A program made the position numbers and the translations under genes. Shown one piece after another: positions 14,422 through 45,001 of a stretch of DNA of 46,520 bases (positions within the stretch are counted from its first letter, which is position 1; every line of letters starts with the position of its first letter). The stretch is from Bacillota bacterium (GTDB lineage Bacteria; Bacillota; SHA-98; Ch115; JABLXJ01): contig JABLXJ010000020.1 of assembly GCA_013178125.1 (NCBI GenBank), forward strand, positions 1-46,520, given 5' to 3'. The notes under the pieces are model-generated. The model was not told the DNA's origin. It saw only the letters and a program-made list of their open reading frames with translations, and made no database searches.

Positions 14422-14495
14422 GGGACCAGCCCCCTTCTTCACTCCAGTTTTCCTTCGTTAAGAAATGCCCGAAGAGTATTGAAAAGGCCTAGCCA

Positions 14496-18580: not shown

Positions 18581-18788
18581 AGAAAGATCCCCCTATAGGC
18601 AGATACACTACGTAGCGCTGAGGCTATCCCTTTACAGGAAGGCCGACAAAGGACAGGATATCGATTATATCTCAAATCAAAATGCACGATCCCTCGCCCG
18701 CGACCGTGGGCCTCATAGTCTGGGGGATATGGCCCCCCACACCACTAGTAGTTTTGCCATAAGTACCAATACCTCAAGACTGGCACCA

Positions 18789-18819
18789 GGGCAGGCCTGG
18801 GTGGCACCCAGGCCTGCCC
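18789..18819. promoter_or_regulatory. perfect 14-bp hairpin between binding-protein and permease genes
   Basis: GGGCAGGCCTGGGT and its exact complement around a 3-base loop, 20 bases after the stop of the binding-protein gene. No T run. Such intercistronic hairpins commonly protect the 3' end of binding-protein mRNA so that more of it is made than of the permease. Confidence 0.65.
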
Positions 18820-18837
18820 ACCATCCTCTCTTTTAGC

Positions 18838-20430: not shown

Positions 20431-20708
20431 TTTAATCTCTCCTTTACATATCGTTCGTTTAGTAGTCAAGAAACACACACGAGCCTGCCGACATCTTTCG
20501 GCCATCTCCACTTCACCGGGGCGAGGCCACTCCATCATAGCGCATCACTGGGCACCTTTACAATCCCTACGCTCACTTAACGGTCATGTCTCGACAATTC
20601 CTTAGACTACATCTCGTACATCTTAAATTCCTCTCTTCTCTCTCACCCCCCTCCCACTTCCCCTCCGGGCGGACCACACAACAGCTAACGCGAAAGGTAC
20701 TACAGAAA

Positions 20709-21701
20709 CTAGTATCCCGTTATCCTATGACAGGCAACCCAATGTCCTGTATCAACCTCCTCTAATTGTGGTGGATTCCCCGTACAGAGGTCCCTGAGGG
20801 CAACAGGGCATCGGGCATGAAACGGGCACCCTCTAGGCAAATTCATGGGACTTGGGACATCTCCCTCAAGTACGATTCGCTGTCTGGTCGCCTCAATCTT
20901 TGGGTTAGGGACCGGAACGGAGGAAAGCAAAGCTTTCGTGTAAGGGTGCAAAGGATTGGCGTAGAGTTCATCCCTTCCAGCCAACTCTACCAAACACCCC
21001 AGGTACATAACAGCTACTCTATGCGATATGTACCTCACTATAGAAAGGTCATGCGAGATGAACAACATACTCAGCTGGTAATCACGCTGCATCCTTTTAA
21101 GTAAATTAATCAATTGCGCCTGAATTGATACATCCAAGGCCGATAACGGTTCATCCGCTACTAGTAATTGAGGTTTAAGGGACAGGGCGCGGGCGATAGC
21201 TACACGCTGTAGCTGCCCACCAGACAGCTGAGGAGGGTATCGAGAGCTCATCTCTCCTGAAAGCCCGACCTGCTCAAGAAGCTGAACCACTTGACGGCGT
21301 ATTTCAGATCCAGATGTGATCTTGTGAACTCGTAACGGTGTAGCCAGAATGGTCTCAATAGACTTGCGAGGGTTTAGCGAACCGTAAGGATCCTGAAATA
21401 CCATTTGAATTTCTCGGCAAAGTTGTTGGGAATAAGAGCCCTCCGCTTTAAAGATATCTCTTCCCTTATACAATATCTGACCCTGTGTAGGTGCTATCAA
21501 TCTACACACTAATCTACCGAGCGTCGTCTTGCCACAGCCACTCTCTCCAACAAGGCCGAGAGTCTCATTTGGAAAAATCTCGAGAGATATGTTATTCACC
21601 GCTTTGACCTGAGCTCTCTTGGCGACTCCTAGGCGTTTAATCGTGAATATCTTCGAAACTTGCCTTATTTGGAGAAGTGACATCGCCTTTTCTTGTATCA
21701 T
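20709..21701 (-). CDS. oligopeptide ABC transporter ATP-binding protein, OppF/DppF type
   Basis: 330 residues. Walker A GESGCGKT, Q-loop MVFQDPYGSLNPR, signature LSGGQLQRV, Walker B LLVADEP and the H-loop SHD are intact. The C-terminal oligo/dipeptide domain ends with GCPFHARCP and further cysteines, a feature of this family that can hold an iron-sulphur cluster. ATG 21701 follows GGGAGGT nine bases upstream. Pairs with the OppD-type ATPase upstream. Confidence 0.92.
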   Translation of the reverse strand: MIQEKAMSLLQIRQVSKIFTIKRLGVAKRAQVKAVNNISLEIFPNETLGLVGESGCGKTTLGRLVCRLIAPTQGQILYKGRDIFKAEGSYSQQLCREIQMVFQDPYGSLNPRKSIETILATPLRVHKITSGSEIRRQVVQLLEQVGLSGEMSSRYPPQLSGGQLQRVAIARALSLKPQLLVADEPLSALDVSIQAQLINLLKRMQRDYQLSMLFISHDLSIVRYISHRVAVMYLGCLVELAGRDELYANPLHPYTKALLSSVPVPNPKIEATRQRIVLEGDVPSPMNLPRGCPFHARCPVALRDLCTGNPPQLEEVDTGHWVACHRITGY

Positions 21702-21770
21702 TCGAATGCAACCTCCCGAACAAATGCCATGCCTGCCAGTAGACGCGGTAAAAACACAAATCTTATTATA

Positions 21771-22745
21771 TTATTCTGCCCACCGCCAGCAGGCAGAAAG
21801 GTTTCCAGGTATATCTGTGCTCATTAGGGGAGGGGCCTCTTTCGTGCATTTCGTCTCAGCGAGACTACACCGTGACGAATATGGGCATCCCCTTGGCGGA
21901 TTGATCAAGTCAGGTGGCTGGCCTTCTATGGTATTTAGTACATCTTTTACTTCACCGACTAAGGATGGGATACACGAAAGTAACCCTTGTGTGTACGGGT
22001 GCCGGGGATGATCATACAAGTATGAAGCCGGTCCCCATTCCACTATGTGTCCTGCGTACATAACAAGAACATGGTCGGCTAGGCTTGCAATAGTAGCGAG
22101 GTCATGACTGACCCATATAACTGTCATACCAAGCGCTTCTTTTAGGCCCTTAACTAGTTCGACGATCTGAGCCTGTATGGTAACATCAAGGGCAGTGGTT
22201 GGCTCATCCGCGAGAAGGACCCTGGGCTCACAGGACAAAGCCATAGCAATCATGATTCTCTGGCACATCCCTCCGCTGAATTCATGAGGAAATTGTCGTA
22301 AACGTTGAGCGGGCTCAGGGATCCTCACCCGTTCTAACATCTCAATGGCGCGGCTCCGCGCCTCAACATATGAACAATGCCTATGAACCATAATAGCTTC
22401 TGTCATCTGTTTCCCAATGGTAAGTACAGGATTAAGCGACGACATGGGGTTTTGGAAAATCATAGCGATTTCTTGACCGCGAATCTTCCTCATCATAGGC
22501 TTTTCAAGTCGACACAAGTCGGTGTCCTTATACAGAACTTTTCCTTCAACGATTCGTGCCGTGGGGGGTAGGAGATTCATAATTGAAAGCGCTGTCATAG
22601 TTTTACCACATCCCGATTCTCCTACCACCCCAAGACTCTCTCCCTCATTGACGGTGAAGCTTATACCATCGACGGCTTTTACGATCCCGCGCTTTGTGAA
22701 AAGATACGTCCTGAGCGTTTTAACCTCGAGAACTGGTATACTCAT
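21771..22745 (-). CDS. oligopeptide ABC transporter ATP-binding protein, OppD/DppD type
   Basis: 324 residues from ATG 22745; a GTG at 22760, directly after the permease stop, would add five residues, but GAGGG sits better for the ATG. Walker A GESGCGKT, Q-loop MIFQNPMSSLNP, signature FSGGMCQRI, Walker B VLLADEP and SHD are present. C-terminal GCPYSSRCSLAETKC is the OppD cysteine cluster. Energises import together with OppF and the two permeases. Confidence 0.92.
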   Translation of the reverse strand: MSIPVLEVKTLRTYLFTKRGIVKAVDGISFTVNEGESLGVVGESGCGKTMTALSIMNLLPPTARIVEGKVLYKDTDLCRLEKPMMRKIRGQEIAMIFQNPMSSLNPVLTIGKQMTEAIMVHRHCSYVEARSRAIEMLERVRIPEPAQRLRQFPHEFSGGMCQRIMIAMALSCEPRVLLADEPTTALDVTIQAQIVELVKGLKEALGMTVIWVSHDLATIASLADHVLVMYAGHIVEWGPASYLYDHPRHPYTQGLLSCIPSLVGEVKDVLNTIEGQPPDLINPPRGCPYSSRCSLAETKCTKEAPPLMSTDIPGNLSACWRWAE

Positions 22746-22760
22746 ATCGAACACCCTCAC

Positions 22761-23645
22761 TTACTCATCCCGGGCCTTTGGGTTGAAAATGACCCGGACC
22801 GCATCGCCGATAATAGCAAAGCAAAGAGTAACGATAAGAAGTACAGCACTTGGGACCAGGGTAACATGGGGAGCGATCATGATGAAGTTCTTACCGTCGG
22901 AGACCATTGTTCCCCAGTCAGCCTGCGGGGGTTGTACACCTAACCCTAAAAAGCTCAGACCTGCTGTTGCGGAAATCATCAGAGGAATATCCATACTCAT
23001 GGCCGTCATAGCTATTGCCATTACATTAGGCAAGATTTCGGAAAAGATTATCCTAAGATCACCGTATCCGAGCACTCTAGCGGCATCTATAAACGATGCC
23101 TCCTTAATAGACAATGTCTCTCCTCTGATGAGTCGGATCCTAGCAGGAACTGTCGCCACAATAACCGCAATCATCGCATTCTGTAGCGATGGCCCAAGAG
23201 CGGCGACCAGGGCTATGGCCAGTAGCATGAAGGGGAAGGATAGCATAATATCAACCACTGCCATAACTATCCGATCAAACCAGCCACCCCAATATCCAGA
23301 GAGCAAACCTAGTAATACCCCAAAGGACATGGCAATAAAGGCGGGAACTACACCGGCCAAAAGGGACGTCCGGCCAGCCCAAATAACCCGGCTCAAGATA
23401 TCTCTTCCATAACTATCTGTTCCAAGAGGGAAACCCGGCGTTCCGATGGGTTTGAGCCGGCTCCTAATCTCCATCTGGTACGGATCTTTCGGTGCCACCC
23501 AGAGAGCAAATATAGCTGACATAGCGATCAAAAGAAGGATTAAGCATGCAACGGTTACAAGGGGTTTCTCTCTAAAATAAGAGAGTATTTTCCTATAAGA
23601 GTCAATTCCACAGGTACCTTTAGCTCGAGTTAATTCAATGCTCAT
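22761..23645 (-). CDS. ABC transporter permease, DppC/OppC type
   Basis: 294 residues. The N-terminal segment ahead of membrane helix 1 (about 32-52) is followed by the DPYQMEIRSRLKPIGTPG loop and GTDSYGRDILSRV typical of OppC proteins. EAA motif ASFIDAARVLGYGDLRI. Five further membrane helices. ATG 23645 behind GGGTGG. The stop is immediately followed by the OppD-type gene. Confidence 0.92.
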   Translation of the reverse strand: MSIELTRAKGTCGIDSYRKILSYFREKPLVTVACLILLLIAMSAIFALWVAPKDPYQMEIRSRLKPIGTPGFPLGTDSYGRDILSRVIWAGRTSLLAGVVPAFIAMSFGVLLGLLSGYWGGWFDRIVMAVVDIMLSFPFMLLAIALVAALGPSLQNAMIAVIVATVPARIRLIRGETLSIKEASFIDAARVLGYGDLRIIFSEILPNVMAIAMTAMSMDIPLMISATAGLSFLGLGVQPPQADWGTMVSDGKNFIMIAPHVTLVPSAVLLIVTLCFAIIGDAVRVIFNPKARDE

Positions 23646-25233: not shown

Positions 25234-25859
25234 ATGACCAGCTACGAAGTAATTATACGCCCAAAGAGACCGGAAATAAAGTCCCAGGATGAAATCAGAT
25301 TTACTATCGAAGCGCCATCGTTACCAGACGGAAATGAGAGCGATCTTGTAGATGCATTGGAGAACGCGGCCATGGAAATCGGCGTTCAAATAGAGCGCGG
25401 CTTATTCACTAACCATCTAAAACGTATCGAGATGAAGCTATGTAATAGCTTAACCCATCTGGATGATAACTGCGAGGTAGTTCGTAATGGATATCGTAAG
25501 CTTAAGATAAGCGCCAGGTTTGGCATTATTGACATAGAACGTCAGGTCGCCTTCTGCAAGACTTGCGGGAAGGACTTTATCCCCATAAACAGTGTCCTTC
25601 CCGAGCATAACGGGATGGTCATAACCAAGGGGTTACAGGAGTTGGCCTGTTTTCTTTCCATGTTTTCATCCTACAGGATTGCACAGCGGCTTTTGGGAGG
25701 TTCTGCCATGATCCCGATGTTCTATGTTCGCGCGAGATAGAGGATTTAGTAGGGCATCATGGAGCGATGATACGAAAGCGAGAACTTGAGGAATCTAGGG
25801 CTATCGAGGAAAGCAATGATACAGACGTGGTGGTTTCACGGTTGAAGGAATCAAATTAG
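25234..25859 (+). pseudogene. broken transposase gene, N-terminal part
   Basis: ATG 25234 behind GGAGG opens 168 residues. RNGYRKLKISARFGIIDIER, then CKTCGKDFIP and ITKGLQELACFLSMFSSYRI are typical of the N-terminal zinc-ribbon and following helices of ISKra4/UPF0236-like transposases. The frame stops at 25738; another frame carries on with FCHDPDVLCSREIEDLVGHH to a stop at 25857, so a frameshift lies near 25700. No catalytic domain follows. Dead relic, divergent from transposon copy 2. Confidence 0.6.
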
Positions 25860-25974: not shown

Positions 25975-27099
25975 TCAGTCCAGTATTCCGAACATATAGT
26001 AACGTAGCAAAGCTTCCACCAAGTAATAGTCTCCGAAACCCAACTCAGAGTCGACCCCTCTGTCCTTCGACAGGAAATAGCACCCGTGCGGAAGCAATCC
26101 TCCTTCAACGGTTGAGTCGAGGTGGTCAGAGCTGTTTTTGACAAGTGCCGTAAGAAGTTCTTCCGCTTGTACAAACCATTTATAGCGCTCTAATCCTTTT
26201 CCGGAGGAAGCGAGGATGAGCAATCCGGCAACCGCAATAGACGAGGCGGAAGAATCTCGCTCCACATTTGGAATCCGTGGATCCAAAAGATCATAGTAGG
26301 CTATCTTATCTTCGGGCAAATGACGCAAGAAGAAGTTGGCCAGGCGAACCGCTGCTTCTTTAAACCGCTCATCGCCCGTCTGCCGGTATAACCAGGAAAA
26401 ACCGTATATTCCCCACGCCTGTCCACGGGACCAACAGGAGTCCGCATTATAACCCTGATGAACTCCGGGTCCCTCTATCTTACCTGAATCGGGATCAAAC
26501 CAGATGACCTGATAGGTTGAACCGTCATTTCGCACGTTTGCGTGCAGAATCGTTTCTGCTGTTTTCAATCCAACATCATAAAAACACTGTTCTCCCGTCA
26601 TCCTGTGGGCCCAGAAAAGCAGGCGCAGGTTCATAATTGTGTCGATAATGGTGTAGCCACGCCTGTCCCCATGCTCGACATCACCATGAGCCGGTATGAA
26701 GTTACCTCTGGGATTGAAACGGCGACTAAGCCTATCCGCAGCTTTAATGGCTACCTCCTTGAACTCGCTACTGCCAGTCAAAGTGTACCCCAGAACACAC
26801 GAACAGTTGAAGAGGAAACCCAGGTCGTGATCCTTAAGGTCTATTTTCTCGGCGGCAATTCTCTTAGACATGTATTCCGCTGTATCCCGCAAGAACGGAT
26901 CGCGGCTATACAGATAAAGCCACCACATGATCCCCGGCCAGAAAGCCTCTGTCCAATAGCCGTTCATATACCACTTTTTCTGCCTGCGGTCGTAGTAGTC
27001 GGGAAAGCTGCCATCCCAGATTCCGATATTATGCTTACTTCTCAGTACCATTTTGTCCAGTAGCTCTGTCACCTTGGGCTTCAACTCAGGATTAATCAT
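25975..27099 (-). CDS. GH88 family glycoside hydrolase (unsaturated glucuronyl hydrolase)
   Basis: 374 residues forming an alpha/alpha barrel. Family 88 enzymes hydrate the double bond of unsaturated uronic acids at the ends of lyase products, freeing 4-deoxy-5-keto-uronate. The two key acids align as Asp92 in DHDLGF and Asp153 in IIDTIMN, and HQGYNADSCWSRGQAW (about 221-236) is the conserved central motif. No signal peptide, so it works inside the cell on imported oligosaccharides. GGGGGAA precedes ATG 27099. Last gene of the operon. Confidence 0.9.
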   Translation of the reverse strand: MINPELKPKVTELLDKMVLRSKHNIGIWDGSFPDYYDRRQKKWYMNGYWTEAFWPGIMWWLYLYSRDPFLRDTAEYMSKRIAAEKIDLKDHDLGFLFNCSCVLGYTLTGSSEFKEVAIKAADRLSRRFNPRGNFIPAHGDVEHGDRRGYTIIDTIMNLRLLFWAHRMTGEQCFYDVGLKTAETILHANVRNDGSTYQVIWFDPDSGKIEGPGVHQGYNADSCWSRGQAWGIYGFSWLYRQTGDERFKEAAVRLANFFLRHLPEDKIAYYDLLDPRIPNVERDSSASSIAVAGLLILASSGKGLERYKWFVQAEELLTALVKNSSDHLDSTVEGGLLPHGCYFLSKDRGVDSELGFGDYYLVEALLRYYMFGILD

Positions 27100-27159
27100 G
27101 GTTGCCGTTCCCCCATGCTATATTTGTTACGACCTAAGAAACTACTACAGACCGTAAAT

Positions 27160-28128
27160 CTACTGACGCCGAGCCAAAGCCACGATTCTAAGGGACTTGA
27201 TTCCCTCTCCCACCGGAATGCTGACGGGTAGGTCCTCTACAACCGCAGTCAGAAAGTCCCTGTCTTCATTGCGGAACATGTCATCTCTTTCGGTAGGCAG
27301 AGTTTCCCTTGTCCAGACCCCATTCTCAGCCGTGAAAGTTGATACTGTACATTGATTCCAACCGGCAAATTCCACTTCAATTACTCCCTCTGTGCCGATT
27401 AACTCCGTAAGACGTCGGCGGGGTCTTTGGAAAAAGTCAAGGTGAACACTGGCATAGCAGTTATTGTCAAATTCTATGAGAACCTCGGCCACATCAGTAA
27501 CTTGGATGTCAAGGTCGCTGATTTTCCCATGAATTGACTTGACGGTTTTGGTTTCCCCGCCCGAAAACCAGACTGCAAGATCGATCTCATGCACAAGGTC
27601 AAACACGCCTAAGTGCTGAGAGGCCGTCAGTGTTCGGTAATCGGGTCTTACTGTAGGTAGGTGTTCACCCATCACTGACCGGATGCTGACCAGCCTGCCT
27701 ATCCGCCCGCTATCCAAATACTGTTTCGCGCGCCGTAAACCTTCATGGTATCGGAAACAAAAACCAACCATGAACTTTTTCCCGCTCTGTTCTATGGTTT
27801 CAACGAGCGTTTGAATATTGTTCATATCATCTGCCAGGGGCTTTTCACAGAAAACGTGGCAGCCGGCACGCAATGCTTTGACTGACATTTGCACATGAAG
27901 GGGCGGCGGGGTAAGAACGAACACTATATCTGGGCCGGATTTAAGAGCTTCGTGGTAGTCTGAGTAGATCTCTTCAACCGGAGTCTCACGCGAAAGAGCT
28001 TCACGTTGGGCAGCAATAGGATCACAGATCTTGAGGTGAGAGACTCCTAAGCTGCTTAGGATTCGTGCGTGCCTTCGACCAACGGAACCACAACCCGCCA
28101 GCAACACTTTCAAATCAGCCCAACTCAT
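27160..28128 (-). CDS. Gfo/Idh/MocA family oxidoreductase
   Basis: 322 residues. Nucleotide motif GCGSVGRRHARIL (11-23), catalytic EKP in CEKPLAD (about 94-100) and a C-terminal domain with DLVHEIDLAVWFSG. Second dehydrogenase of the uronate operon, 60 bases ahead of the GH88 gene. It may act on a uronate, a keto-sugar or an inositol-like compound. Confidence 0.86.
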   Translation of the reverse strand: MSWADLKVLLAGCGSVGRRHARILSSLGVSHLKICDPIAAQREALSRETPVEEIYSDYHEALKSGPDIVFVLTPPPLHVQMSVKALRAGCHVFCEKPLADDMNNIQTLVETIEQSGKKFMVGFCFRYHEGLRRAKQYLDSGRIGRLVSIRSVMGEHLPTVRPDYRTLTASQHLGVFDLVHEIDLAVWFSGGETKTVKSIHGKISDLDIQVTDVAEVLIEFDNNCYASVHLDFFQRPRRRLTELIGTEGVIEVEFAGWNQCTVSTFTAENGVWTRETLPTERDDMFRNEDRDFLTAVVEDLPVSIPVGEGIKSLRIVALARRQ

Positions 28129-28181
28129 GGACTACACCCCCAAGTCCTAGAGGCAACTACTGTCTGCTGCGGTCGTAATCT

Positions 28182-29006
28182 TTACCAGGCTGTCAATCCC
28201 CCGTCAACAGGGAGATTTACTCCGGTGATAAAAGAAGCAGCTTCCGAAGCCAGAAAGACCACGGCACCCTTGATTTCTTTGCCATCCATGCCCATCCGGC
28301 CCATAGGAATTGTCTCGCTGTACGCCTTTACAAATGCCTCCGGCTGACCGCGCCAGAAACCGGCAGGGCTGATACAGTTGACCCTGATTCCGTCCGGTGC
28401 CAGGTGGCAAGCCATATCCCGTGTCATATTGATTACGCCAGCCTTGGCGGCTTCGTAGTCTATCGTGACTCCGCCCATGTTCGTACCCCTATAGACTCGA
28501 CGGTCCTTTCCTATCATGCCGGCTGTTGAACCCAGGTTGATAATGACCCCCCGTTTTGCAGGCTTCATTGCCCGGGCGACAACATGTTTAGAGCAGAGGA
28601 AAACCCCAGTCAGATTGACATCTATCGTGTTTTGCCATTCCTCAAGGGGCCGTCGTTCCAAGCCGTTATTTTCAGGAGTACTCACAACGTTACCGGCGTT
28701 ATTCACCAGGATGTCTATCCTGCCAAAGTCCGCCAGTACTTGATCAACTACTCTGATTACTTGGTCTTCATACCTTACGTCAAGTTGATAGGGTACTACC
28801 TTTCTCCCCGTAAGTTCGGCAATTTTCCGGCTTGATTCCGCAGCCCTATCTAAAGACCTGCTCGTAATGGCAACATCGGCGCCAGCCTCAGCTAGGGCTA
28901 AGGCCATATCAAAACCCAGGTTTCTCGCCCCTCCTGTTACAAGTGCAACCTGATTGTTGAGCCGCAACATTTGCATTACGTTGTACTCATTCACCTTGTC
29001 TTGCAT
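28182..29006 (-). CDS. SDR family oxidoreductase (KduD-like)
   Basis: 274 residues from ATG 29006 (AGGAG ten bases upstream; a TTG 29045 frame is longer but unlikely). Classical short-chain dehydrogenase: TGGARNLGF cofactor loop, NNAGN, catalytic Ser in NLGSTAG, then the Tyr-x-x-x-Lys as YEAAK, and a proline/glycine-rich ISPAGFWRG. It resembles 2-deoxy-D-gluconate 3-dehydrogenase (KduD), which follows the GH88 step in unsaturated uronate breakdown, fitting the context. Exact substrate not certain. Confidence 0.85.
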   Translation of the reverse strand: MQDKVNEYNVMQMLRLNNQVALVTGGARNLGFDMALALAEAGADVAITSRSLDRAAESSRKIAELTGRKVVPYQLDVRYEDQVIRVVDQVLADFGRIDILVNNAGNVVSTPENNGLERRPLEEWQNTIDVNLTGVFLCSKHVVARAMKPAKRGVIINLGSTAGMIGKDRRVYRGTNMGGVTIDYEAAKAGVINMTRDMACHLAPDGIRVNCISPAGFWRGQPEAFVKAYSETIPMGRMGMDGKEIKGAVVFLASEAASFITGVNLPVDGGLTAW

Positions 29007-29057
29007 TCCGGGCACGCTCCTCTCCACAGTAAACCGGTAGGACAATCTACACGTGTA

Positions 29058-29795
29058 TTAGGACGGAAAGTGCTCCACTACCAAGCACGCGGTTGTCTTG
29101 GACCTATTAGAACCGTATATGTGCTCTTGGGTAAAGCGAAAGTGATCTCGTAGTAGCATATACGCTTTCTTACTATCCCGGTTGGCTACTGCATTATATA
29201 TTTTTCTGTGCCGGTCGTAGGATTGCTCCAAGTCGGGATCCGCCAGCTCGGCAAAATCGTGAGCGTTCTGCAATAGCTTCCAAAAAATGTCCAGCAGTTT
29301 TAGTAGAAGATTATTGCCGACAGGTTCATAAAGGACCCTATGGAACTCCCCATCCGCTTTAACATATGCCCTCATATCGGCATCTTTGACCGCCTGTTCC
29401 ATGTCTGAAAGTAATGAACCGAGCTGCTTGAGGTCCTTCTCTGTGATCTGCTCCACCGCTTTGGCGATGTATCCTAGCTCGAGGGTCACGCGAATATCCA
29501 TTACCTCATCCAGGTCGTCCCGGTCGAACATCATGTTGTACGGAAGGTGTTCAATTATCGGGTCATAACTGAATGACCTGACAAACATCCCATCCCCCGC
29601 TTTAATTTCAATTACGCCTAGGACCTCCAAACTCTTGAGCGCCTCACGCACAGATGGGCGGCTCACCTGCAGTGCTGTAGAAAGTTCCATCTCTGTTGGT
29701 AGCCGATCACCCGGCTGTAGTTCCTTCTCAATAATAAAGTCCTGAATAGCTTGCATAACAAGCCGAAATCGTTTTGCACTTGGTATCGGCTTCAT
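29058..29795 (-). CDS. FadR/GntR family transcriptional regulator (FCD domain)
   Basis: 245 residues from ATG 29795 (GGGTGAAGAAG upstream); a start at 29828 would add eleven. Winged helix-turn-helix (about residues 8-75: LPTEMELSTALQVSRPSVRE) and FCD domain with the usual ligands (DGEFHRVLYEP). Likely local regulator of the uronate operon; the palindrome at 34744-34759 is a possible target. Related regulators sense uronates or aldonates. Confidence 0.87.
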   Translation of the reverse strand: MKPIPSAKRFRLVMQAIQDFIIEKELQPGDRLPTEMELSTALQVSRPSVREALKSLEVLGVIEIKAGDGMFVRSFSYDPIIEHLPYNMMFDRDDLDEVMDIRVTLELGYIAKAVEQITEKDLKQLGSLLSDMEQAVKDADMRAYVKADGEFHRVLYEPVGNNLLLKLLDIFWKLLQNAHDFAELADPDLEQSYDRHRKIYNAVANRDSKKAYMLLRDHFRFTQEHIYGSNRSKTTACLVVEHFPS

Positions 29796-29868
29796 CTTCT
29801 TCACCCTACCTGTCTTCGTGAGTATCACTGATTCGGAAGTAATCTGGTCTTGAACTTCAAGCTGCCTC

Positions 29869-30876
29869 CTACCGGGGGGCGTTCAACACTTCGTGAATAC
29901 TCACTAGTCGCCCTTCCCTTGCCGATAGTTCCGCCGCAGCTACCAAAGCAACGGCCCTAAGGCCATCCTGCACGGTGACTTCCGGTTGTCGTCTTTGGGA
30001 AATGCAGTCCGCAAACTCATCTATTTCTTCAAGAAGAGAAGCGGCCACACTCTGCTTCGGAACGCTGATTTTAATTCTTTCAGCACCTCCGCTAACGTCG
30101 ACCTTAAAGAATCCTAAAGAGTCATCGTAAAACAGCTGCCCACGAGTACCATAGACAACGATTCTATATGTAGCGGCTGTTGCGTAACTAGAACCAATAT
30201 AGCCCAGACAACCGCTTTCGAATTCAAAAACAGTTACAGTGGTATCATCTATATCCGCCGCACTATGAAGCCTTTTTTGCATCCCGAATACGCTGCGAAC
30301 CGGACCAAACAGGTAATGAAGGGTGTCGGCGTGATGGATCCCTAACTGGATAAGCGGCCCTGTAGGACATTCCTCCCGCGCCCAACGCCACTCTCCGGCC
30401 CGGAGCCTCAAACCGCGGTCATGAGAGAAAGTCCCCTCTACCATGACCGACTCCCCGATCCGTCCTTCTGTAATTAACTGTTTCAGCATCCTTGATTCCG
30501 GTCTACGACGGCTGTTATGTCCGACAGCAATAACAATCGAATTTTCCGCCGCAATCTCAGATATTCTCTTTGCCTGCTCAATTGACGCCGAAATGGGTTT
30601 TTCCACCAAAACACTCTTTCCAAATTCCGCCGCCAGCCGAATTTGTTCTTCGTGAACTGAATTAGGGGTTGCCAGTATTACACCCTGTACTTCGGGGTCT
30701 TGCAGTAGCTCCTCGTAACTTCCGGCAGCTTTGCAGCCGTACATACGGGCAAAATCCGCCCTTCTTTGCTCACGCCGGGCAAACACGCTGATGAGTCGTA
30801 CACGGCTACTTCTCGCAATCTGTTGCGCCAGCACTTCGCTCCAATCCCCTAGTCCAACGAGAGCTACACCAATCAC
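29869..30876 (-). CDS. Gfo/Idh/MocA family oxidoreductase
   Basis: 335 residues. GLGDWSEVLAQQ nucleotide loop (8-19), VEKPISA catalytic motif (about 91-97), HNSRRRPE (118-125) and QLGIHHADTLHYLFG with the paired His residues. Lies between the importer ATPase and the FadR gene. Third member of this family in the window. Confidence 0.86.
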   Translation of the reverse strand: MIGVALVGLGDWSEVLAQQIARSSRVRLISVFARREQRRADFARMYGCKAAGSYEELLQDPEVQGVILATPNSVHEEQIRLAAEFGKSVLVEKPISASIEQAKRISEIAAENSIVIAVGHNSRRRPESRMLKQLITEGRIGESVMVEGTFSHDRGLRLRAGEWRWAREECPTGPLIQLGIHHADTLHYLFGPVRSVFGMQKRLHSAADIDDTTVTVFEFESGCLGYIGSSYATAATYRIVVYGTRGQLFYDDSLGFFKVDVSGGAERIKISVPKQSVAASLLEEIDEFADCISQRRQPEVTVQDGLRAVALVAAAELSAREGRLVSIHEVLNAPR

Positions 30877-30899
30877 AACAACATTCCTCCCCCAGCGTT

Positions 30900-31691
30900 C
30901 TAGGACATTGTACTGGCCTTGAGAAAGCCCTTCGAGCGGAATATCCCGAAGATTCTGTTGTACAGTTCGTTGAAAGGTTCACTAAATTGCATATCCCCCC
31001 TGGGACGGGGAAGGTCGACTTCAATAATTTCTTCAATTCTACCCGGCCTTGGAGTCATAACCACAATTCTGTCCGACAGTTTGATTGCTTCCGAGATACT
31101 GTGGGTAACGAATAAGACAGTCTTTTTCGAGGCAAGCCATAGCTTCTCCAGGTCAATACCTATTTCATCGCGGGTCAAGGCATCCAGGGCGCCGAAAGGT
31201 TCATCCATGAACAGTAAAGGAGGATCATGTACCAAGGCCCGACAAACTGACACTCGCTGCCGCATTCCGCCGGACAATTCGTATGGGTACTTGGTTTCAA
31301 ACCCGTCTAGCCCCACGCGCTTCAGCAGCCACAAAGCCTGCTCTTTGTAGTCCGTCCGGTTAAGGTTCCGCATTTCAATTTGCAGAAGTACGTTCCGGAG
31401 AACATCATACCAGTCCAAGAGCAAGTGCTCCTGGAACACAATACCCACGTTAGTAATAGGGCGTCTAACCTCTTTCCCGTCGACTATCACTGTACCCTTA
31501 GAACTCGGGATTAAACCGGCCACTATCTGTAATAGAGTGCTTTTCCCACACCCGCTAGGGCCGACAAGGGACACAAACTCCCCATACTTGATGGTGAGAT
31601 TTATGTTGTTAAGAGCTTCGACCCAACCGTCTCTGGTTTTGTATGTTTTGCTAAGGTCCCTGATTTCTATGTGGTTATCCAAAGCGTACAC
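30900..31691 (-). CDS. ABC transporter ATP-binding protein, SsuB/TauB type
   Basis: 263 residues. Walker A GPSGCGKST (41-49), signature LSGGMRQRV, Walker B LLFMDEPFGALD and H-loop VTHS are intact. It belongs to the nitrate/sulphonate/taurine/thiamine-precursor subgroup. GTG 31691 has its purine tract very close; TTG 31682 is better spaced. Partner of the permease 32895-33731 and binding protein 31760-32761. Confidence 0.9.
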   Translation of the reverse strand: MYALDNHIEIRDLSKTYKTRDGWVEALNNINLTIKYGEFVSLVGPSGCGKSTLLQIVAGLIPSSKGTVIVDGKEVRRPITNVGIVFQEHLLLDWYDVLRNVLLQIEMRNLNRTDYKEQALWLLKRVGLDGFETKYPYELSGGMRQRVSVCRALVHDPPLLFMDEPFGALDALTRDEIGIDLEKLWLASKKTVLFVTHSISEAIKLSDRIVVMTPRPGRIEEIIEVDLPRPRGDMQFSEPFNELYNRIFGIFRSKGFLKASTMS

Positions 31692-31759
31692 CCCTTTGAG
31701 TCTTTCACGGAGATGGAAGGGCGCCAGGCCCTCCCATCTCAGGAATGAATCCCACCAAA

Positions 31760-32761
31760 TTACTTGCCAGGTAGAACGTTAGGCAGAAATTCGTTGGTGT
31801 AATACGCCGTTGCTGGTTTGCCGGCGGGAAGACCACGATACTCGGATAAAAGCTTGATAGTATTCTCCCAGTCCTTGGCCGTGGCTTTTCCAAGGGTATT
31901 AGAAGTGGGTGAGAATAGGAATGTGAACGCAGCCATCAACTGGTTCTTCATGACCTCCGGGTTGCCTTCCGGGATGTGCTTCAAGATGGCTGCAATTGCT
32001 GCATCGGGATTCTTGCGGGCTGCGTCCCACCCCTTAATGACGGCATCCAGGAAGCCACGTACCACCTGGGGACGCTGCCGGAGGGTATCCTCATGGGCGA
32101 TGATTGACATCCCTATGGTGTTGGTACCGAAATCAGCAAACCTCAACACACGAACAGGAAATCCTTTGGCCGCCAGGGTAAGGGGTTGGTCGTCGGCCCC
32201 TCCAAGGATCGCATCGACCCTATTCTCCATCAACGCCCCAACCTTTGCAGGGGCGTCGACGTGGGTCAGCTGAACCTTGTTAATGTCGATGTTGTTTGCC
32301 TTTGCAAAAGCGGGGAAAAGCTGGCTGAGAGCGTCACCCGAAGTCATTGCAACACGTTTCCCCTCAAGATCCTTTGGCTGCGTAATGCCGCTGTCTTTTC
32401 CGGTAATTACTGCAAAAGAACTAGACTGGAAAAGCGCCGAGATGGTTTTAATAGGTACCCCACGGGCTGCGGCAAGTATCGTAGTGCCTGCGTCAGCCCA
32501 CCCAAAATCGTTGGATTTGTTGCCGATTAGCTTCACCGTTGTTGCCGAACCACTACCCTCGAGAATCTCCACTTTCAGCCCGTTTTGCGCAAAATACCCA
32601 TTTTCAAGTGCGAGAAAGAACGGTGCGTGTGATCCCTGCCCGACCCAATTAAGCCGAAATGACACTTTTTCGGCGGCGAGAGTGCCGGCTGTCATTGTTG
32701 CCAAAACCAGTAGCAAAACCGAGGTAACAAGAATTCCTCTTTTGAATCTGAGCTCAAACAT
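31760..32761 (-). CDS. ABC transporter substrate-binding protein, SsuA/NMT1-THI5 type
   Basis: 333 residues. ATG 32761 behind GAGGAGGT. Signal peptide with basic FKRG and hydrophobic ILVTSVLLLVLATM, cleaved near AGTLAAE. Mature fold: FRLNWVGQGSHAPFFLALEN, then YFAQNGLKVEI, typical of NMT1/SsuA-like proteins, which bind sulphonates, taurine, pyrimidines or aromatic acids rather than sugars. This is an unusual importer to find in a uronate operon. Confidence 0.9.
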   Translation of the reverse strand: MFELRFKRGILVTSVLLLVLATMTAGTLAAEKVSFRLNWVGQGSHAPFFLALENGYFAQNGLKVEILEGSGSATTVKLIGNKSNDFGWADAGTTILAAARGVPIKTISALFQSSSFAVITGKDSGITQPKDLEGKRVAMTSGDALSQLFPAFAKANNIDINKVQLTHVDAPAKVGALMENRVDAILGGADDQPLTLAAKGFPVRVLRFADFGTNTIGMSIIAHEDTLRQRPQVVRGFLDAVIKGWDAARKNPDAAIAAILKHIPEGNPEVMKNQLMAAFTFLFSPTSNTLGKATAKDWENTIKLLSEYRGLPAGKPATAYYTNEFLPNVLPGK

Positions 32762-32894
32762 TTCTGTACCTCCTCAATCCGATTTGTTCGTCAATTAAAG
32801 CAATCCAGAAGACAACCAACCATACGACATCCTATCTCAAAACGCGTTTCTCAGATTTCTTACGTACCCCCCTCCCGCGCAAGGCTACATACAG

Positions 32895-33731
32895 TCATTG
32901 CCCGGCCGCTTCACCCCGCTTAGATACATGCCAGGGAATGGTGGCCCTTTCAACTAGTTCCACCAAGGCGTAGAGAGCATAACCAAACGCCGTCAAGAAG
33001 AACAATATAGCGAATAGGAGTTCCGTATCAAAGTCCCCGTTAGCCCGAAGGAGAAGATACCCGAGCCCTGAATCCGAACCGACGAACTCGGCAACCACAG
33101 CCCCACTAGTGGCAAAGGCACCTGAAACCTTGAGTCCGCCGAAGATATTGGGAAGCGCATTGGGAAACTGGATCCGGCGAAAAATCTGAAGAGGGCTTGC
33201 CCCCATTGATTTAGCCAGGTATTCCATTTCGGGCCGCAGGGACTTAAAGCCTATGACGGAGTCGACCAGCAGTGGGAAGAACGACATCAGGAACGTCAAC
33301 ATCACTTTTGGCATAACGCCAAAGCCGAACCAGATTATAAACAAAGGAGCAATCGCCGTTTTCGGAACGAACTGTGATGAGACAAGCAGTGGGTAGACCG
33401 TTTTCTCAACAAAGCGCGAACGCGATATGGCTACCGCAGTCGGTATGGCAATCAATATGGACGTACCATATCCCAACATGACTTCAAAGATGGTGACCCT
33501 TGCGTGGTTCCATATCATGCCGAATCTGGCAAAAAACTGTCCTATGATCAAGGTGGGTGGGGGGAGTATGTAAACGGGAATATGGAAAACGCGGCTTACA
33601 ACCTCCCATGCAATAAGCGCAAAGAGGAAGGTTAAACCTGTCCCAAAGTCTGCTAGTTTTAATCGTTCTTTAAGTGAAGAGGGCTTGGATTTGGCAACTG
33701 TTTTTCCCGTCCTATGCTGAAGCTTCTCCAC
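32895..33731 (-). CDS. ABC transporter permease, SsuC/TauC type
   Basis: 278 residues with six membrane segments and the EAA motif EYLAKSMGASPLQIFRRIQF. GTG 33731 follows GGGGGG seven bases upstream, and the gene overlaps the end of the aldolase gene by 20 bases, so translation is coupled. Third component of the Ssu-type importer. Confidence 0.9.
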   Translation of the reverse strand: MEKLQHRTGKTVAKSKPSSLKERLKLADFGTGLTFLFALIAWEVVSRVFHIPVYILPPPTLIIGQFFARFGMIWNHARVTIFEVMLGYGTSILIAIPTAVAISRSRFVEKTVYPLLVSSQFVPKTAIAPLFIIWFGFGVMPKVMLTFLMSFFPLLVDSVIGFKSLRPEMEYLAKSMGASPLQIFRRIQFPNALPNIFGGLKVSGAFATSGAVVAEFVGSDSGLGYLLLRANGDFDTELLFAILFFLTAFGYALYALVELVERATIPWHVSKRGEAAGQ

Positions 33732-34644
33732 TATATATCCCCCCAGGAAAAAGTTCGCACTCCTCGAGTATTCTCTTTATTTCGGCGGTATGGTGTTTAA
33801 CTTCGAAAATCGGGGCGCTGACACGCCCTCCACATATTCCCAAAATCTCCAAAGACGTTTTTAGTCCACTTAACCAGGAACCAAACAGATGAATTTTGAA
33901 AAGGTGATTCAGTTTCTCCTGCAATCTGAAGACCTCGCCAATGTTGCCACTCTTGGCTGCCAGGTAGAGATCTACAACCAGTCTCGGGGCAACATTAGAC
34001 AGCCCGGCTACAACGCCGTCCGCTCCATAAAGCACACTTATTCCACTAAGGCGTTCGGCGCCCTGAAACACGCGGAATGACTGTTCCTTGCGGAAACGCA
34101 TCAAGAGTTCCTGAAAATGAGTAAAGTCCCCTGAACTATCCTTGACTCCGACAATGTTGTCAATCCTGGACAGAACTTCGACCGTTTCCGCCTCAATTGA
34201 TGTCTTCGTAGTTTGGGGAATGTTATAGATCATAACAGGAAGCTCAATAGACCCGGCCACCGCAGCAAAATGATCGATCAATTCGGACTGGGAGTTGCTC
34301 TGGAAGTAATAAGGGGGACAGACAACCAGACCTTGGACTCCGATTTTACTCAGGGTTCGCGCCAGCTCAATGGATCTCTTGGTTCCCGCTTCCCCGGCTC
34401 CTGCCAGAACCGGTACCCGACCTCGTACCTCGTCAACGACAACTTCAACCGCCTTTAACCTGACGCGGTCAGTAAGCGTTGGGAGTTCCCCGCTTGTTCC
34501 CAAAACAAAAACGCCGTTTACTCCCCCTCTGAGTAGATGGTTGACCAGGCGACGAAGACCCTTCTCGTCCAACGACTCGTCCTCTTTGAGCGGTGTCACA
34601 ATCGGGCAGATAACGCCGGTCATTTTTTCCACGAATGATTGCAC
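33712..34644 (-). CDS. DapA/NanA family aldolase (dihydrodipicolinate synthase-like)
   Basis: 310 residues. Class I aldolase barrel: GTSGE (49-53), Tyr140 in YNIP and the Schiff-base Lys168 in GVKDSSGD. In this operon a 2-keto-3-deoxy-sugar-acid aldolase or a dehydratase role is more plausible than lysine synthesis. GTG 34644 follows GAGGGG. First gene of the uronate operon. The C-terminal 20 residues overlap the permease start. Confidence 0.87.
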   Translation of the reverse strand: MQSFVEKMTGVICPIVTPLKEDESLDEKGLRRLVNHLLRGGVNGVFVLGTSGELPTLTDRVRLKAVEVVVDEVRGRVPVLAGAGEAGTKRSIELARTLSKIGVQGLVVCPPYYFQSNSQSELIDHFAAVAGSIELPVMIYNIPQTTKTSIEAETVEVLSRIDNIVGVKDSSGDFTHFQELLMRFRKEQSFRVFQGAERLSGISVLYGADGVVAGLSNVAPRLVVDLYLAAKSGNIGEVFRLQEKLNHLFKIHLFGSWLSGLKTSLEILGICGGRVSAPIFEVKHHTAEIKRILEECELFPGGIYSGEASA

Positions 34645-34743: not shown

Positions 34744-34781
34744 ACAATATAGATATTGTTCAATAAACCTTAATCGGTCAA
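34744..34781 (-). promoter_or_regulatory. candidate promoter and operator of the uronate operon
   Basis: ACAATAT-AG-ATATTGT (34744-34759) is a perfect palindrome about 100 bases before the aldolase start. On the minus strand TTGACC (34781-34776) stands 17 bases ahead of CAATAT inside the palindrome, so a repressor there would cover the -10 region. The -10 match is poor (3 of 6), so this is tentative. Confidence 0.4.
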
Positions 34782-35139: not shown

Positions 35140-35646
35140 CTACAAACCCAGGTTCTGGAATTCTCTGGCTGGTAAAACATTTACCGGTGGCTTGATGCGG
35201 AGCAACCTCAGTATCTTGTTGCTCAAATCAGTCCCCTTGGTTTTAATAAGATACTCCCTCTCGTCGATCTCTACCTTGGCAAAGTTCATAGAATTTATGG
35301 CTTCCCTAATCATTTCCGCTGAAGCCTCTACCCCGGCCTTCCAAAGTTTGAACTCCAAGGTGCGGGCGAGTAGAAAGGCTAAAAAGCAAACCACAAAGTG
35401 CCCCTTGATACGTGGCTCAGTCCAATGGAAGACCGGCTGCACTTCCAGAGTCGTCTTCATAATCCGGAAGGATTCTTCAATCTTCCATAGGTCATGGTAT
35501 GCTGCCAGCACACCCTTCACACTCATCTCCCTTTCATTGGTCTGGATACCGTAATACCCGTCGAATTTCTCATCTTTTCTAATCCGCTCCTCATCTAAAA
35601 CCCAGTCCACATAACCCGGCTCCGCTTCCTTTATTAGTAGGTTCAT
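35140..35646 (-). pseudogene. C-terminal part of an IS1634 (IS4-group) transposase
   Basis: 168 residues remain of a protein usually over 500. FDGYYGIQTNE and YHDLWKIEESFRIMKTTLEV carry the late Glu of the DDE triad; FVVCFLAFLLARTLE follows. The N-terminal two thirds, with both Asp residues, are gone. The 14-bp sequence ATTTTGCCACTACA occurs as a direct repeat at 35131-35144 and 35676-35689, framing the relic, consistent with an internal deletion. Confidence 0.8.
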
Positions 35647-36720: not shown

Positions 36721-37126
36721 ATCCTTACCAGAACGCGGAAATCCTAATTTACACCACTTAACGGGACGTGACTTACGGACGCTCCTGAGGGACCCGGCCG
36801 CCACCCTTCTCTTAAAGCAGACGGCGGTTCCCTGTAGCAAGTAGACTTGCGCTCTGACTCCCGCGATGTTGGAGAATTTTTTTCATCCCCAGGCTCACCG
36901 TCGGAAGGAATCGAGAGGCGAACGTAGAATAATTTGTTTGTCTAGTGGTCTAACTAAGTCTCCTGGTCATTGCCTCCGGGGTGCTACTGAGTAGCCGGGG
37001 GCGGCAATTAACACTATGAGGCGAGAACCGGCGGAAGGCGCGACGACATCGTCGTTGCTCTCCGGGGGTATGGTATTCATGGAGCTGGTTCCCCACCGTT
37101 ATGCAGGGGGGGGCGGAATTTTTACG
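36721..37126. other. leader region of the URO-D/ROK pair, with hairpin
   Basis: It begins with the IS256 end and then non-coding DNA. An imperfect hairpin with arms ATTGCC (36969-36974) and GGCAAT (37003-37008), extended by CCGG pairs, lies about 120 bases before the start at 37127. It might be a terminator for the relic or part of the leader. Confidence 0.35.
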
Positions 37127-38227
37127 ATGAAAGCTATGAGTTCCAGGGAGAGGGTACTTTGCGCCCTCAGACGCGAGCGGCATGACCGGGTCCCGGTCAC
37201 CCCTCTTGTGGGTCACTATGCCGCACGTATTTTCGGAATATCGATCGGGGCATACAGTCGCAGTGCATCTCTCCTCGCCAAAAGCATTGTCGCGGCACAG
37301 CGTCAGTTCGGTTACGACGCTGTCTATGTCGCGGCTGATACGTGGGTCAATGCCGAGGCCATGGGATGCGTTCTCACATATCCGGAGGACAGCCCTCCGT
37401 TCGGGCGGCCGATCATCAGCTCTTCTGATGAGCTTAAGAACTTGAGACTTCCGGACCCCCAACGGGACGGTCGGTGGCCCCTTATGCTCCGGGCGGTTGA
37501 ACTGGTGGCGAAGGAACTTGGGAATTCGTGCTGCGTTATCGGTAACTTTGATCAGTCCCCGTTCTCGTTTGCGTGTCAACTCCGCGGGGTCGCCGAGTTC
37601 ATGTATGACCTCATCGACTCACCCCAGTTTGCCTTCGACCTTCTTGAGATCTGCGCGAAGGCAGTCATCAGGTATGCGAAAGCGATGGCTTCGGCAGGAG
37701 CGGATGTCCTCAATACCGGCGACGCTGCTGCAAGCGGGAGTCTCATCGGCGCAGAATTCTACGAGAGGTTCGCGCTTCCGTTCGAGCAAATGGTATTTCG
37801 TGCGCTTGCCGACACAGGCTGCCCGTGTGTGCTTCATATTTGTGGCGATAGCTCGAGAATTCTCGAAGCGATGGCGACCTCCGGGGCGCAGGGGATTGAA
37901 GTAGATTACCAGGTGGACGTCGCAGAGGCGACGAAGCGTGTTGGCGACAAGGTCTGCATTATCGGGAATCTGAATCCTGCCCACATCATGTCGGAGACAC
38001 CAGACCGAGTCTACGAGGAGAGCAAGAGCATCATTGAAGCGTGCAAAGCTGTCTCGGGTTTCGTATTCGCGTCTGGTTGTACCATTGCCCCGGCCACCCC
38101 CCCGGAAAACGTACATGCCATGGTCAGGGCCGCCAGAGATTGGGGGAGCCTGAGTCAACCTGAAACTGGTATCTCCGGGTGTGCTTTGGGCTTGACCCGC
38201 GAAACCCGATCCAAGGAGAGAGGTTGA
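37127..38227 (+). CDS. URO-D superfamily methyltransferase (MtaA/CmuA-like)
   Basis: 366 residues from ATG 37127; the upstream in-frame extension to 37016 has no ribosome site and odd composition. Opening MSSRERVLCALRRERHDRVP is typical. Unlike the other two copies, it retains the full zinc site of methylcobamide:CoM methyltransferases: LHICG (His and Cys) and a distal Cys in ASGCTIAPATPPEN. It probably moves a methyl group between a corrinoid protein and an acceptor, but no corrinoid protein lies in the window. The stop lies six bases before the ROK start at 38233, so they form an operon. Confidence 0.8.
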   Translation: MKAMSSRERVLCALRRERHDRVPVTPLVGHYAARIFGISIGAYSRSASLLAKSIVAAQRQFGYDAVYVAADTWVNAEAMGCVLTYPEDSPPFGRPIISSSDELKNLRLPDPQRDGRWPLMLRAVELVAKELGNSCCVIGNFDQSPFSFACQLRGVAEFMYDLIDSPQFAFDLLEICAKAVIRYAKAMASAGADVLNTGDAAASGSLIGAEFYERFALPFEQMVFRALADTGCPCVLHICGDSSRILEAMATSGAQGIEVDYQVDVAEATKRVGDKVCIIGNLNPAHIMSETPDRVYEESKSIIEACKAVSGFVFASGCTIAPATPPENVHAMVRAARDWGSLSQPETGISGCALGLTRETRSKERG

Positions 38228-39961: not shown

Positions 39962-40981
39962 ATGAAAAGAATCAGTAAGACTCTGCTCATGGTGATGATC
40001 ATCGGGTTGATCTTCACAATCAGCATTCCGGCGGTGTCTTCGAAACAGTTAACAATTGGCGTAGTGATTCCCTATGAGATTGGCTGGTTTGGGGCGTTCA
40101 AACAAGGCTTTGAGCTTGTGGCGAAACAAGAAGGAGTTAAGCTGGTTTGGCAATATCATGGTTACAAACCGGATCAAGAAACAACCGCTATTCAAAACCT
40201 TATTACCATGGCTGTTGACGCCATCAATCTTACAGCTGCTACTCCCGACAGCGCTCAATACTCCTGCAGCCTAGCCAATGATGCCAAAATCCCCATTCAA
40301 ATTACTGAAAGTGGTCTGGCCCCGGGCAAAGGAAAACCGATTGCCGATATCGATTTCAACTGGGAGCAGATTTATCGCTATATTATTGACAATCTCCGGA
40401 AGGATGAAGAGGGCCCGTTATCCCTGGTATATATTTCAGGGTTTGCCGGCAGTCCGCCAGTCCTTCAATATATTAAGGGCTTGACTGATGAGCTCAAAAA
40501 AGTAAAAGATGTCAAACTAGCAACTGATATTCAATACGGAGACTATGCTACTGCTAAATCCTTGGGAATTATGAAAACAATTATTCAGTCCGGTGTCAAG
40601 TTCAACGTAGCGCTGGGTGCTTGCCAGGAGATCACTGAAGGAATCATCCAAGCCCTGAAAGAAGAGAACATCCCTCGCGATAAGGTGGTGGTCGTCTCCG
40701 TCAACGGTGGCCCGATGGATGTTGAGAACTTCAAGACGGGTGATCTGGATTACGCAATAAGTCAATCCCCATCACTGCATGGAATGATCTGCGCTGAGAA
40801 CCTGATTTCATACCTGAAGGGCCGGACATATCAAAAGAAGGCTTATTCCCCGTTCATTTGGGTCAGCGCCAAAACTTGGCAGGAAAAGCTGATCCCTTGG
40901 GATATGGATGTTAGTTGGCTTCCGGTCGTTAAAGAATTTGTGAAGACGGGAGTCTACAAACCCCAATTGCGGAAAAAGTAG
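39962..40981 (+). CDS. sugar ABC transporter substrate-binding protein (RbsB-like, type 1 fold)
   Basis: 339 residues. ATG 39962 behind GAGGAGG. Signal peptide MKRISKTLLMVMIIGLIFTI with cleavage near VSSKQ. The type 1 periplasmic binding fold shows as LTIGVVIPYEIGWFGAFKQG (about 30-49) and the alternation of beta strands and helices up to YGDYATAKSLGIMKTIIQSG. Binds a sugar or sugar-like solute outside the cell for the RbsA/RbsC pair downstream. Specificity unknown. Confidence 0.9.
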   Translation: MKRISKTLLMVMIIGLIFTISIPAVSSKQLTIGVVIPYEIGWFGAFKQGFELVAKQEGVKLVWQYHGYKPDQETTAIQNLITMAVDAINLTAATPDSAQYSCSLANDAKIPIQITESGLAPGKGKPIADIDFNWEQIYRYIIDNLRKDEEGPLSLVYISGFAGSPPVLQYIKGLTDELKKVKDVKLATDIQYGDYATAKSLGIMKTIIQSGVKFNVALGACQEITEGIIQALKEENIPRDKVVVVSVNGGPMDVENFKTGDLDYAISQSPSLHGMICAENLISYLKGRTYQKKAYSPFIWVSAKTWQEKLIPWDMDVSWLPVVKEFVKTGVYKPQLRKK

Positions 40982-40999
40982 GATGTCCTAGTAAGTGTG

Positions 41000-41060
41000 A
41001 ATAATGCCCCTAATCAGGGGCTTGAAAGAATCTCTTCAGCCCCTGATTAGGGGCATTATT
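41000..41060. promoter_or_regulatory. perfect 23-bp intercistronic hairpin
   Basis: The arm at 41000-41022 (starts AATAATGCCCC) is exactly complementary to 41038-41060 around a 15-base loop, 19 bases after the binding-protein stop and 38 bases before the ATPase. It should protect binding-protein mRNA or partly end transcription, giving excess binding protein over transporter. Confidence 0.8.
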
Positions 41061-41097
41061 CTAGTGATATATAAGGTTTGGAACCGAGGGATATCAA

Positions 41098-44929: not shown

Positions 44930-45001
44930 CGCTCCACGAGGTTCGTAATGGGCATACGACGACATAGCTTATGCTGATACGACATAGGTGGTGTGCATTT
45001 T

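Follow-up and report, generated by a model that had tools for sequence, protein, structure and literature searches.

The window analysed here, a 46,520-nucleotide stretch that constitutes an entire contig (C20, JABLXJ010000020.1) of a 3.48 Mb, 98.4% complete Bacillota genome, contains an operon-like run of nine genes (25975-34644, minus strand, all in one direction) that combines a GH88 unsaturated glucuronyl hydrolase with an importer of the NMT1 type. The arrangement is real, and the pairing is rare: among 90 GH88 loci, an NMT1 protein occurs within about 10 kb of the GH88 gene at one and inside the GH88 directon at none. The NMT1-type system is the sole importer of the operon, which has no SBP_bac_1 protein with CUT1 permeases, no phosphotransferase system (PTS) and no SusCD system. 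The mismatch between enzymes and importer that an earlier reading of this sequence (the original prediction) had pointed out is therefore genuine and unusual. We tentatively propose, with confidence a little short of even, that the run is one GntR-regulated acidic-sugar operon whose importer serves a uronide pathway.

A GH88 hydrolase and an NMT1-type importer in one gene run

The first gene of the run encodes a class I aldolase of the DapA/dihydrodipicolinate synthase (DHDPS) family. It is followed by the permease, binding protein and ATPase of the importer, a Gfo/Idh/MocA oxidoreductase (GfoB), a GntR/FadR-type (FCD) regulator, a short-chain dehydrogenase (SDR), a second Gfo/Idh/MocA oxidoreductase (GfoA) and the GH88 hydrolase. 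The permease and aldolase genes share 20 bp, and the intergenic gaps along the nine genes are, in order, -20, 133, 68, 23, 40, 12, 53 and 60 bp. The open reading frames of the original prediction are confirmed at their coordinates, on the minus strand throughout, and its gene families hold, although it passed over three genes of the same run, those for the GntR/FCD regulator and both Gfo/Idh/MocA oxidoreductases.

The GH88 protein (25975-27099) passes the Pfam Glyco_hydro_88 model narrowly (PF07470, 30.6 bits, cut-off 26.6). The assignment is no chance match, because phmmer aligns residues 9-369, nearly the full length, with the solved Streptococcus agalactiae unsaturated glucuronyl hydrolase (UGL; 2zzr/3anj) at E = 1.4e-58. 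Catalytic Asp92 and Asp153 (HDxGF and IID) do not vary across an alignment of 14 GH88 sequences and are the sites changed in deposited variants (IID to IIN in 3ani, HHD to HHN in 2ahf). No signal sequence is visible by eye at the N-terminus, so the enzyme would be cytoplasmic and its substrate must be imported. Full-length UGL homology and both catalytic Asp residues bear out the original GH88 assignment: on sequence grounds the protein is a solid homologue of unsaturated glucuronyl hydrolases, and its predicted reaction is the hydration of delta-4,5 uronides.

A single-sequence GH88 scan of genome contigs gave no match, and an alignment-based scan gave at least 80 loci, the best 41% identical among the matches listed. 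The 90 loci compared here are 80 from the matches listed in that scan and 10 of 27 other Bacillota GH88 places; 76 exceed 15 kb, and two (L071 and L156) appear to be one locus. The only one with a nearby NMT1 protein is in Rhizobium aethiopicum, where the two genes lie about 9 kb apart with opposite-strand genes between them. Given the NMT1 density of the host, about 1.3 NMT1-bearing loci would be expected by chance among the 76 long ones. Elsewhere, then, GH88 and NMT1 are not associated, and the case in the window has to stand on the structure of its operon. At E <= 1e-20, 15 of 398 Bacillota genomes, the host among them, contain GH88; it was not found in one other genome of the host genus or in two others of the host order.

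Families of the importer and enzymes

The NMT1/THI5-type periplasmic binding protein (31760-32761) scores 177.4 bits with NMT1 (PF09084, cut-off 20.5). The permease (32895-33731), of the SsuC/TauC-like superfamily, matches PF00528 (102 bits), and the ATPase (30900-31691) matches PF00005 (113 bits). No Ssu, Tau or thiamine cut-off among the displayed NCBIfam models is reached by any of the three. The binding protein gives 89.6 with SsuA_fam (cut-off 163.5) and 34.5 with TauA (cut-off 304.25), and the permease gives 92 with TauC (cut-off 342) and 82 with SsuC (cut-off 347). The models closest to the ATPase are SaoA (222) and the taurine ATPase (216, cut-off 357), both under cut-off. With an NMT1-partner permease model, built partly from the same sequence, the permease scores 402 bits, against 18 bits with a sugar-type model.

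The closest solved relatives of the binding protein are 4nmy (E = 2.7e-29), THI5 and ThiY, and taurine- and sulphonate-binding proteins are far weaker matches. The motif DWxPNTNHTG, which we take to mark thiamine-precursor binding, is present in 4nmy and in the proteins L048 and L051 (DWVPNTNHTG) and is missing in the window protein, which reads NWVGQGSHAP. In a tree of 29 rows the window protein falls inside a clade of 10 (support 96/95) composed of plasmid proteins from Agrobacterium, Caballeronia, Chelatococcus, Rhizobium, Phyllobacterium and Bradyrhizobium and one protein from genome G021; L048 and L051 lie outside it. Because the branches are long and the closest row is 36% identical, this group is a hint and not a subfamily. 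NMT1-type binding proteins are usually annotated as carriers of vitamin precursors, sulphonates, nitrate or aromatic acids. By these comparisons the importer is best placed in the broad NMT1/Ssu/Tau/Thi superfamily, and in neither a named sulphonate subfamily nor the type with the thiamine-precursor motif. The original label of an Ssu/taurine type holds for superfamily membership and for the non-carbohydrate character of the importer, but not at the level of the Ssu and Tau models. Among the readings offered with that label, a changed specificity of the binding protein is the best supported, given its position in an NMT1 clade apart from the DWxPNTNHTG proteins and its relatives beside Gfo/Idh and keto-acid enzymes.

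Three NMT1 proteins are present in the host at E <= 1e-5. The one on contig C6 has genes for a nitroreductase, an M20 protein and an ATC-hydrolase-like protein as neighbours. Another belongs to a further NMT1 importer run, on contig C39 (1772-9799; L055); after it, on the same strand, come M20, Fe-ADH and FGGY sugar kinase genes, so that this genome pairs NMT1 with a sugar enzyme a second time.

The aldolase (33712-34644) scores 227 bits with the Pfam DHDPS model (PF00701) and retains the Schiff-base Lys168 (in VKDSSG) and Tyr140, which agrees at family level with the DapA-type aldolase of the original prediction. It falls narrowly under the cut-off of TIGR00674 dapA (198.1 bits, cut-off 206.15). 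True DHDPS carries an Arg after YNxP, and the string YNIPQTTKT has Thr at this position. By the cut-off and Arg criteria, the protein is best classed as a DHDPS superfamily class I aldolase/lyase and not as the DapA of the lysine pathway.

The SDR (28182-29045; PF13561, 181 bits) is a candidate 5-keto sugar-acid reductase with NNAG at 115 and YxxxK at 197. It falls short of every displayed NCBIfam cut-off; its closest model is gluconate 5-dehydrogenase (NF006070, 222.1 bits, cut-off 279), and its solved relatives include the gluconate 5-dehydrogenase 1vl8 (E = 1.6e-37). Scores with two KduD models (144.8, cut-off 338.85; 155.1, cut-off 369) are far too low for the name KduD-like that it had been given. 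The proposed role stands where the name does not, because the gluconate 5-dehydrogenase and KduD groups both reduce or oxidise the 5-keto group of a sugar acid. GfoA (27160-28128; PF01408, PF22725) is inositol-dehydrogenase-like, with myo-inositol 2-dehydrogenase 3cea as its closest solved relative (E = 4e-30), and GfoB (29869-30876; PF01408, PF22725, PF02894) is closest to 3db2 (E = 1e-61). A sulphoquinovose-type pathway was considered for the nine genes and dropped, as they include no dehydratase, lactonase or sulphoquinovosidase.

The GntR/FCD regulator (29058-29828; PF00392, PF07729) is closest to NanR in NCBIfam (123.8, cut-off 260 not reached). A perfect palindrome, ACAATAT-2-ATATTGT (34744-34759), lies 100 bp upstream of the first operon gene and may be the operator of this regulator; it is the only perfect copy in the window, although its significance was not computed. 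A FadR-like operator consensus (TNGTNNNACNA) matches the window 11 times where 7.9 matches are expected, which is no evidence for such sites, and promoter and terminator scans gave counts equal to those in shuffled sequence.

The proposed pathway and its alternatives

The reading as one acidic-sugar operon is favoured by the tight co-directional run and its 20-bp overlap, the conserved GH88 Asp residues, the aldolase residues, the affinity of the SDR, the NMT1 relatives that adjoin Gfo genes, the paralogous run on C39 and the tree of binding proteins. From these features we infer a pathway, with its substrates, step order, regulation and use of the importer. The NMT1-type importer would take up a small unsaturated uronide or a sugar acid derived from it, and the cytoplasmic GH88 enzyme would hydrate the C4=C5 double bond and free 4-deoxy-5-keto-uronate (DHU). 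After isomerisation by an enzyme encoded outside the operon, the SDR would reduce the 5-keto group to yield 2-keto-3-deoxygluconate, which the DapA-family aldolase would cleave to pyruvate and glyceraldehyde. The pair of Gfo/Idh/MocA oxidoreductases could shift the released sugar or aglycone between oxidation states. GH88, SDR and aldolase together would thus form a short, kinase-free route from an unsaturated uronide to pyruvate and glyceraldehyde. Three LacAB/RpiB-family genes elsewhere in the host are possible DhuI-type stand-ins for the isomerase. That the importer itself carries the uronide or its acid product is our leading guess, held with a minority probability. It is doubtful that its clade has become a sugar-acid/uronide uptake family across unrelated phyla, with varied enzyme sets and with the window operon as a complete non-phosphorylating uronide route.

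NMT1 loci elsewhere offer partial parallels. Of 27 plasmid records at E <= 1e-30, 21 loci were taken and 6 near-duplicates left out. Five are unannotated (L193, L194, L195, L215, L218); open reading frames were read for the first three, and the last two were counted unread as misses. Gene calls in GC-rich loci, made by a simple script, are rough. Two Chelatococcus loci (L188, 7068-14437, and L210) carry a cassette of DHDPS, permease, NMT1 binding protein, ATPase, 'enolase', Gfo-Idh, DUF993 and AP_endonuc_2 genes, and its ATPase-to-AP_endonuc_2 part is also present in Azospirillum (L193). The 'enolase' has no Pfam match, AP_endonuc_2 is a TIM barrel, and we know of no assigned function for the cassette. 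Like the window operon, it joins an importer of the same binding-protein clade to a DHDPS-family and a Gfo/Idh gene, but its enzymes are only 21-25% identical to those of the window and it has no GH88. In the Bacillota genome G291 (L057, 6690-15953), MR_MLE, NMT1 binding protein, ATPase, Gfo, creatininase and two further Gfo genes occur with two permeases, and the run adjoins a pectate lyase (PF06917) and a GH95-type protein.

The operon in the Bacillota genome G275 (L202) resembles that of the window in its aldolase (40% identical, same YN(I/V)PQTTKT string), behind which lie two Gfo/Idh genes and a pair of permease genes. It differs in its CUT1 sugar-type importer, whose permeases reach 168 and 197 bits with the sugar-type model but no more than 1-5 bits with that of the NMT1 partners, and in its non-orthologous Gfo genes; GH88 was not found in this 87% complete genome. 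Such a set suits a sugar-type substrate for the window operon. An orthologous operon with a carbohydrate importer, which the original prediction had named as telling against it, is therefore found in half: aldolase, two Gfo genes and sugar-type permeases occur together, whereas the remaining enzymes are non-orthologous and GH88 is missing.

Several observations weigh against an importer devoted to uronides. At 35 of the 90 GH88 loci there is an SBP_bac_1 protein with sugar-type permeases, a lower bound from iterative profiles built on few seeds, with PTS and SusCD uncounted. No orthologous operon occurs among the GH88 matches listed, so co-function rests on one instance. A Gfo/Idh gene stands in the importer's run in a minority of loci, 3 of 21 on plasmids (two Chelatococcus, one Azospirillum) and 1 of 10 Bacillota NMT1 regions (L057-L066; G291), and the enzymes of these cassettes are not orthologous to those of the window (DapA 25%, Gfo 21-30% identical). 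The G291 binding protein (L039) falls in a neighbouring 6-row group outside the window clade. Where the neighbours of the remaining NMT1 relatives were identified, they are adenosine deaminase, nucleoside phosphorylase, AtzD/TrzD, molybdopterin hydroxylase or CoA ligases, or else FAH-family, UbiD, muconolactone, amino-acid or F420 genes; purine, pyrimidine and aromatic-acid functions are thus represented among them. The sugar importer of G275 weakens the need of an NMT1 importer for this chemistry. A single-sequence structure model of the binding protein (mean pLDDT 38) was unusable and was discarded. KduI, searched for with positive controls, and heparinase II/III were not found in the host genome, so any source of unsaturated uronides is hypothetical. 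A Lyase_8 search was uninformative, since its controls gave no match. In open PMC text, nothing relevant links NMT1 importers to sugar acids, uronates or Gfo/Idh/MocA, although names with slashes may have gone unmatched.

In a rival reading the operon handles two parts of one meal. The uronide would enter by another importer, such as the Opp-type SBP_bac_5 system (17612-23645) or the one of ribose type (39962-43619), while a different co-regulated acid, namely an aglycone or a keto or aromatic acid, would be the cargo of the NMT1 system. We consider this fairly unlikely. Some NMT1 relatives do stand with an FAH-family hydrolase and 2-keto-4-pentenoate hydratase, with FAH and CoA-transferases, with UbiD/UbiX or with muconolactone isomerase, and the Opp-type run, with an amidohydrolase gene first, starts 1.3 kb past GH88 on the same strand. 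However, an opposite-strand transposase-like fragment separates GH88 from the Opp system, the 20-bp overlap ties the importer to the aldolase gene, and the operon has no aromatic-ring gene. This last point also tells against the aromatic conjugates of the original prediction, but because some NMT1 relatives sit in aromatic-acid or keto-acid clusters, an acidic aglycone might be the cargo. An importer for a purine, a pyrimidine or a thiamine or riboflavin precursor, placed here by rearrangement and unrelated to uronides, is likewise unlikely. It would agree with 4nmy, THI5 and ThiY as top solved relatives and with the Bacillota neighbourhoods of adenosine deaminase, nucleoside phosphorylase, AtzD/TrzD and molybdopterin hydroxylase genes, but the DWxPNTNHTG motif is missing, the tree separates the window protein from L048 and L051, and the operon contains no nucleobase or vitamin gene.

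A role in sulphated uronides of glycosaminoglycan (GAG) or algal origin, with an Ssu-like importer that recognises sulphate or sulphonate, is very unlikely. The closest solved GH88 relative is the streptococcal enzyme, which is reportedly active on sulphated disaccharides. Its Arg236, Ser365, Ser368 and Lys370, which we take to be its sulphate-binding residues (the numbers fit the aligned chain), correspond to His214, Phe342, Lys345 and Arg347 in the window protein and are thus not conserved; at the Arg236 position the Bacillus GL1 enzyme has His as well. The basic patch left by Lys345 and Arg347 might nevertheless bind an anion. The host has five sulphatase-family matches above cut-off, but none is in the operon, and the three strong ones are on contig C16, which in the same region encodes two SBP_bac_1 proteins and a radical SAM/SPASM protein. 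Smon0123, a protein of a known importer of sulphated GAG disaccharides, carries the annotation of an aldouronate-type binding protein (PMC5430744). The sulphated uronides of the original prediction are accordingly not supported by the GH88 residues or by the location and importers of the strong sulphatases. The C16 region (20020-49202; L053, L054) also contains GntR-LacI-type regulators and two DUF3604 genes; it is likely a sulphated-glycan locus, with the radical SAM/SPASM protein as candidate sulphatase maturase.

Genomic setting and wider meaning

Transposase-like fragments of differing kinds are present on both sides of the operon. The one at 25234-25740 (plus strand) shares 49% identity with a 484-aa UPF0236 protein encoded on host contig C16; the other, at 35140-35646 (minus strand), resembles a transposase C-terminus by eye and has no Pfam match. 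Because these fragments bracket the operon and the genus mate has no GH88, the operon may have been acquired. A search for near-identity of the whole operon in plasmids gave no match. Elsewhere on the contig are three UroD-like genes (13294-14442, 37016-38227 and 44993-46057; two by Pfam, the third by eye), possibly encoding corrinoid-dependent methyltransferases. By eye, the binding proteins at 18838-20538, 31760-32761 and 39962-40981 all have a signal sequence and no lipobox Cys, a pattern that would be consistent with a Bacillota species bounded by two membranes.

The GAG clusters of S. agalactiae and Streptobacillus moniliformis combine UGL, DhuI, DhuD, KdgK and KdgA with a PTS or ATP-binding cassette importer (PMC6837340, PMC5430744). 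The window locus shares with them the union of GH88, an SDR reductase, a pyruvate-releasing aldolase and an importer, and differs in its NMT1-type importer, DapA-family aldolase and two Gfo/Idh genes and in having no isomerase, KdgK or polysaccharide lyase. Its importer has the composition of ThiXYZ, SsuABC and TauABC, with one binding protein, one permease and one ATPase of the same superfamily, but it scores under every displayed named-subfamily cut-off and its operon has no thiamine or sulphonate gene.

If the importer is unrelated to the enzymes beside it, the locus is no more than a usual uronide operon and an adjacent transport system. If one NMT1 group does import uronides or sugar acids, then many such loci would be mis-annotated, and operons that seem to have no sugar importer may have one after all. 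The window operon supplies a concrete binding protein with which this can be tested.

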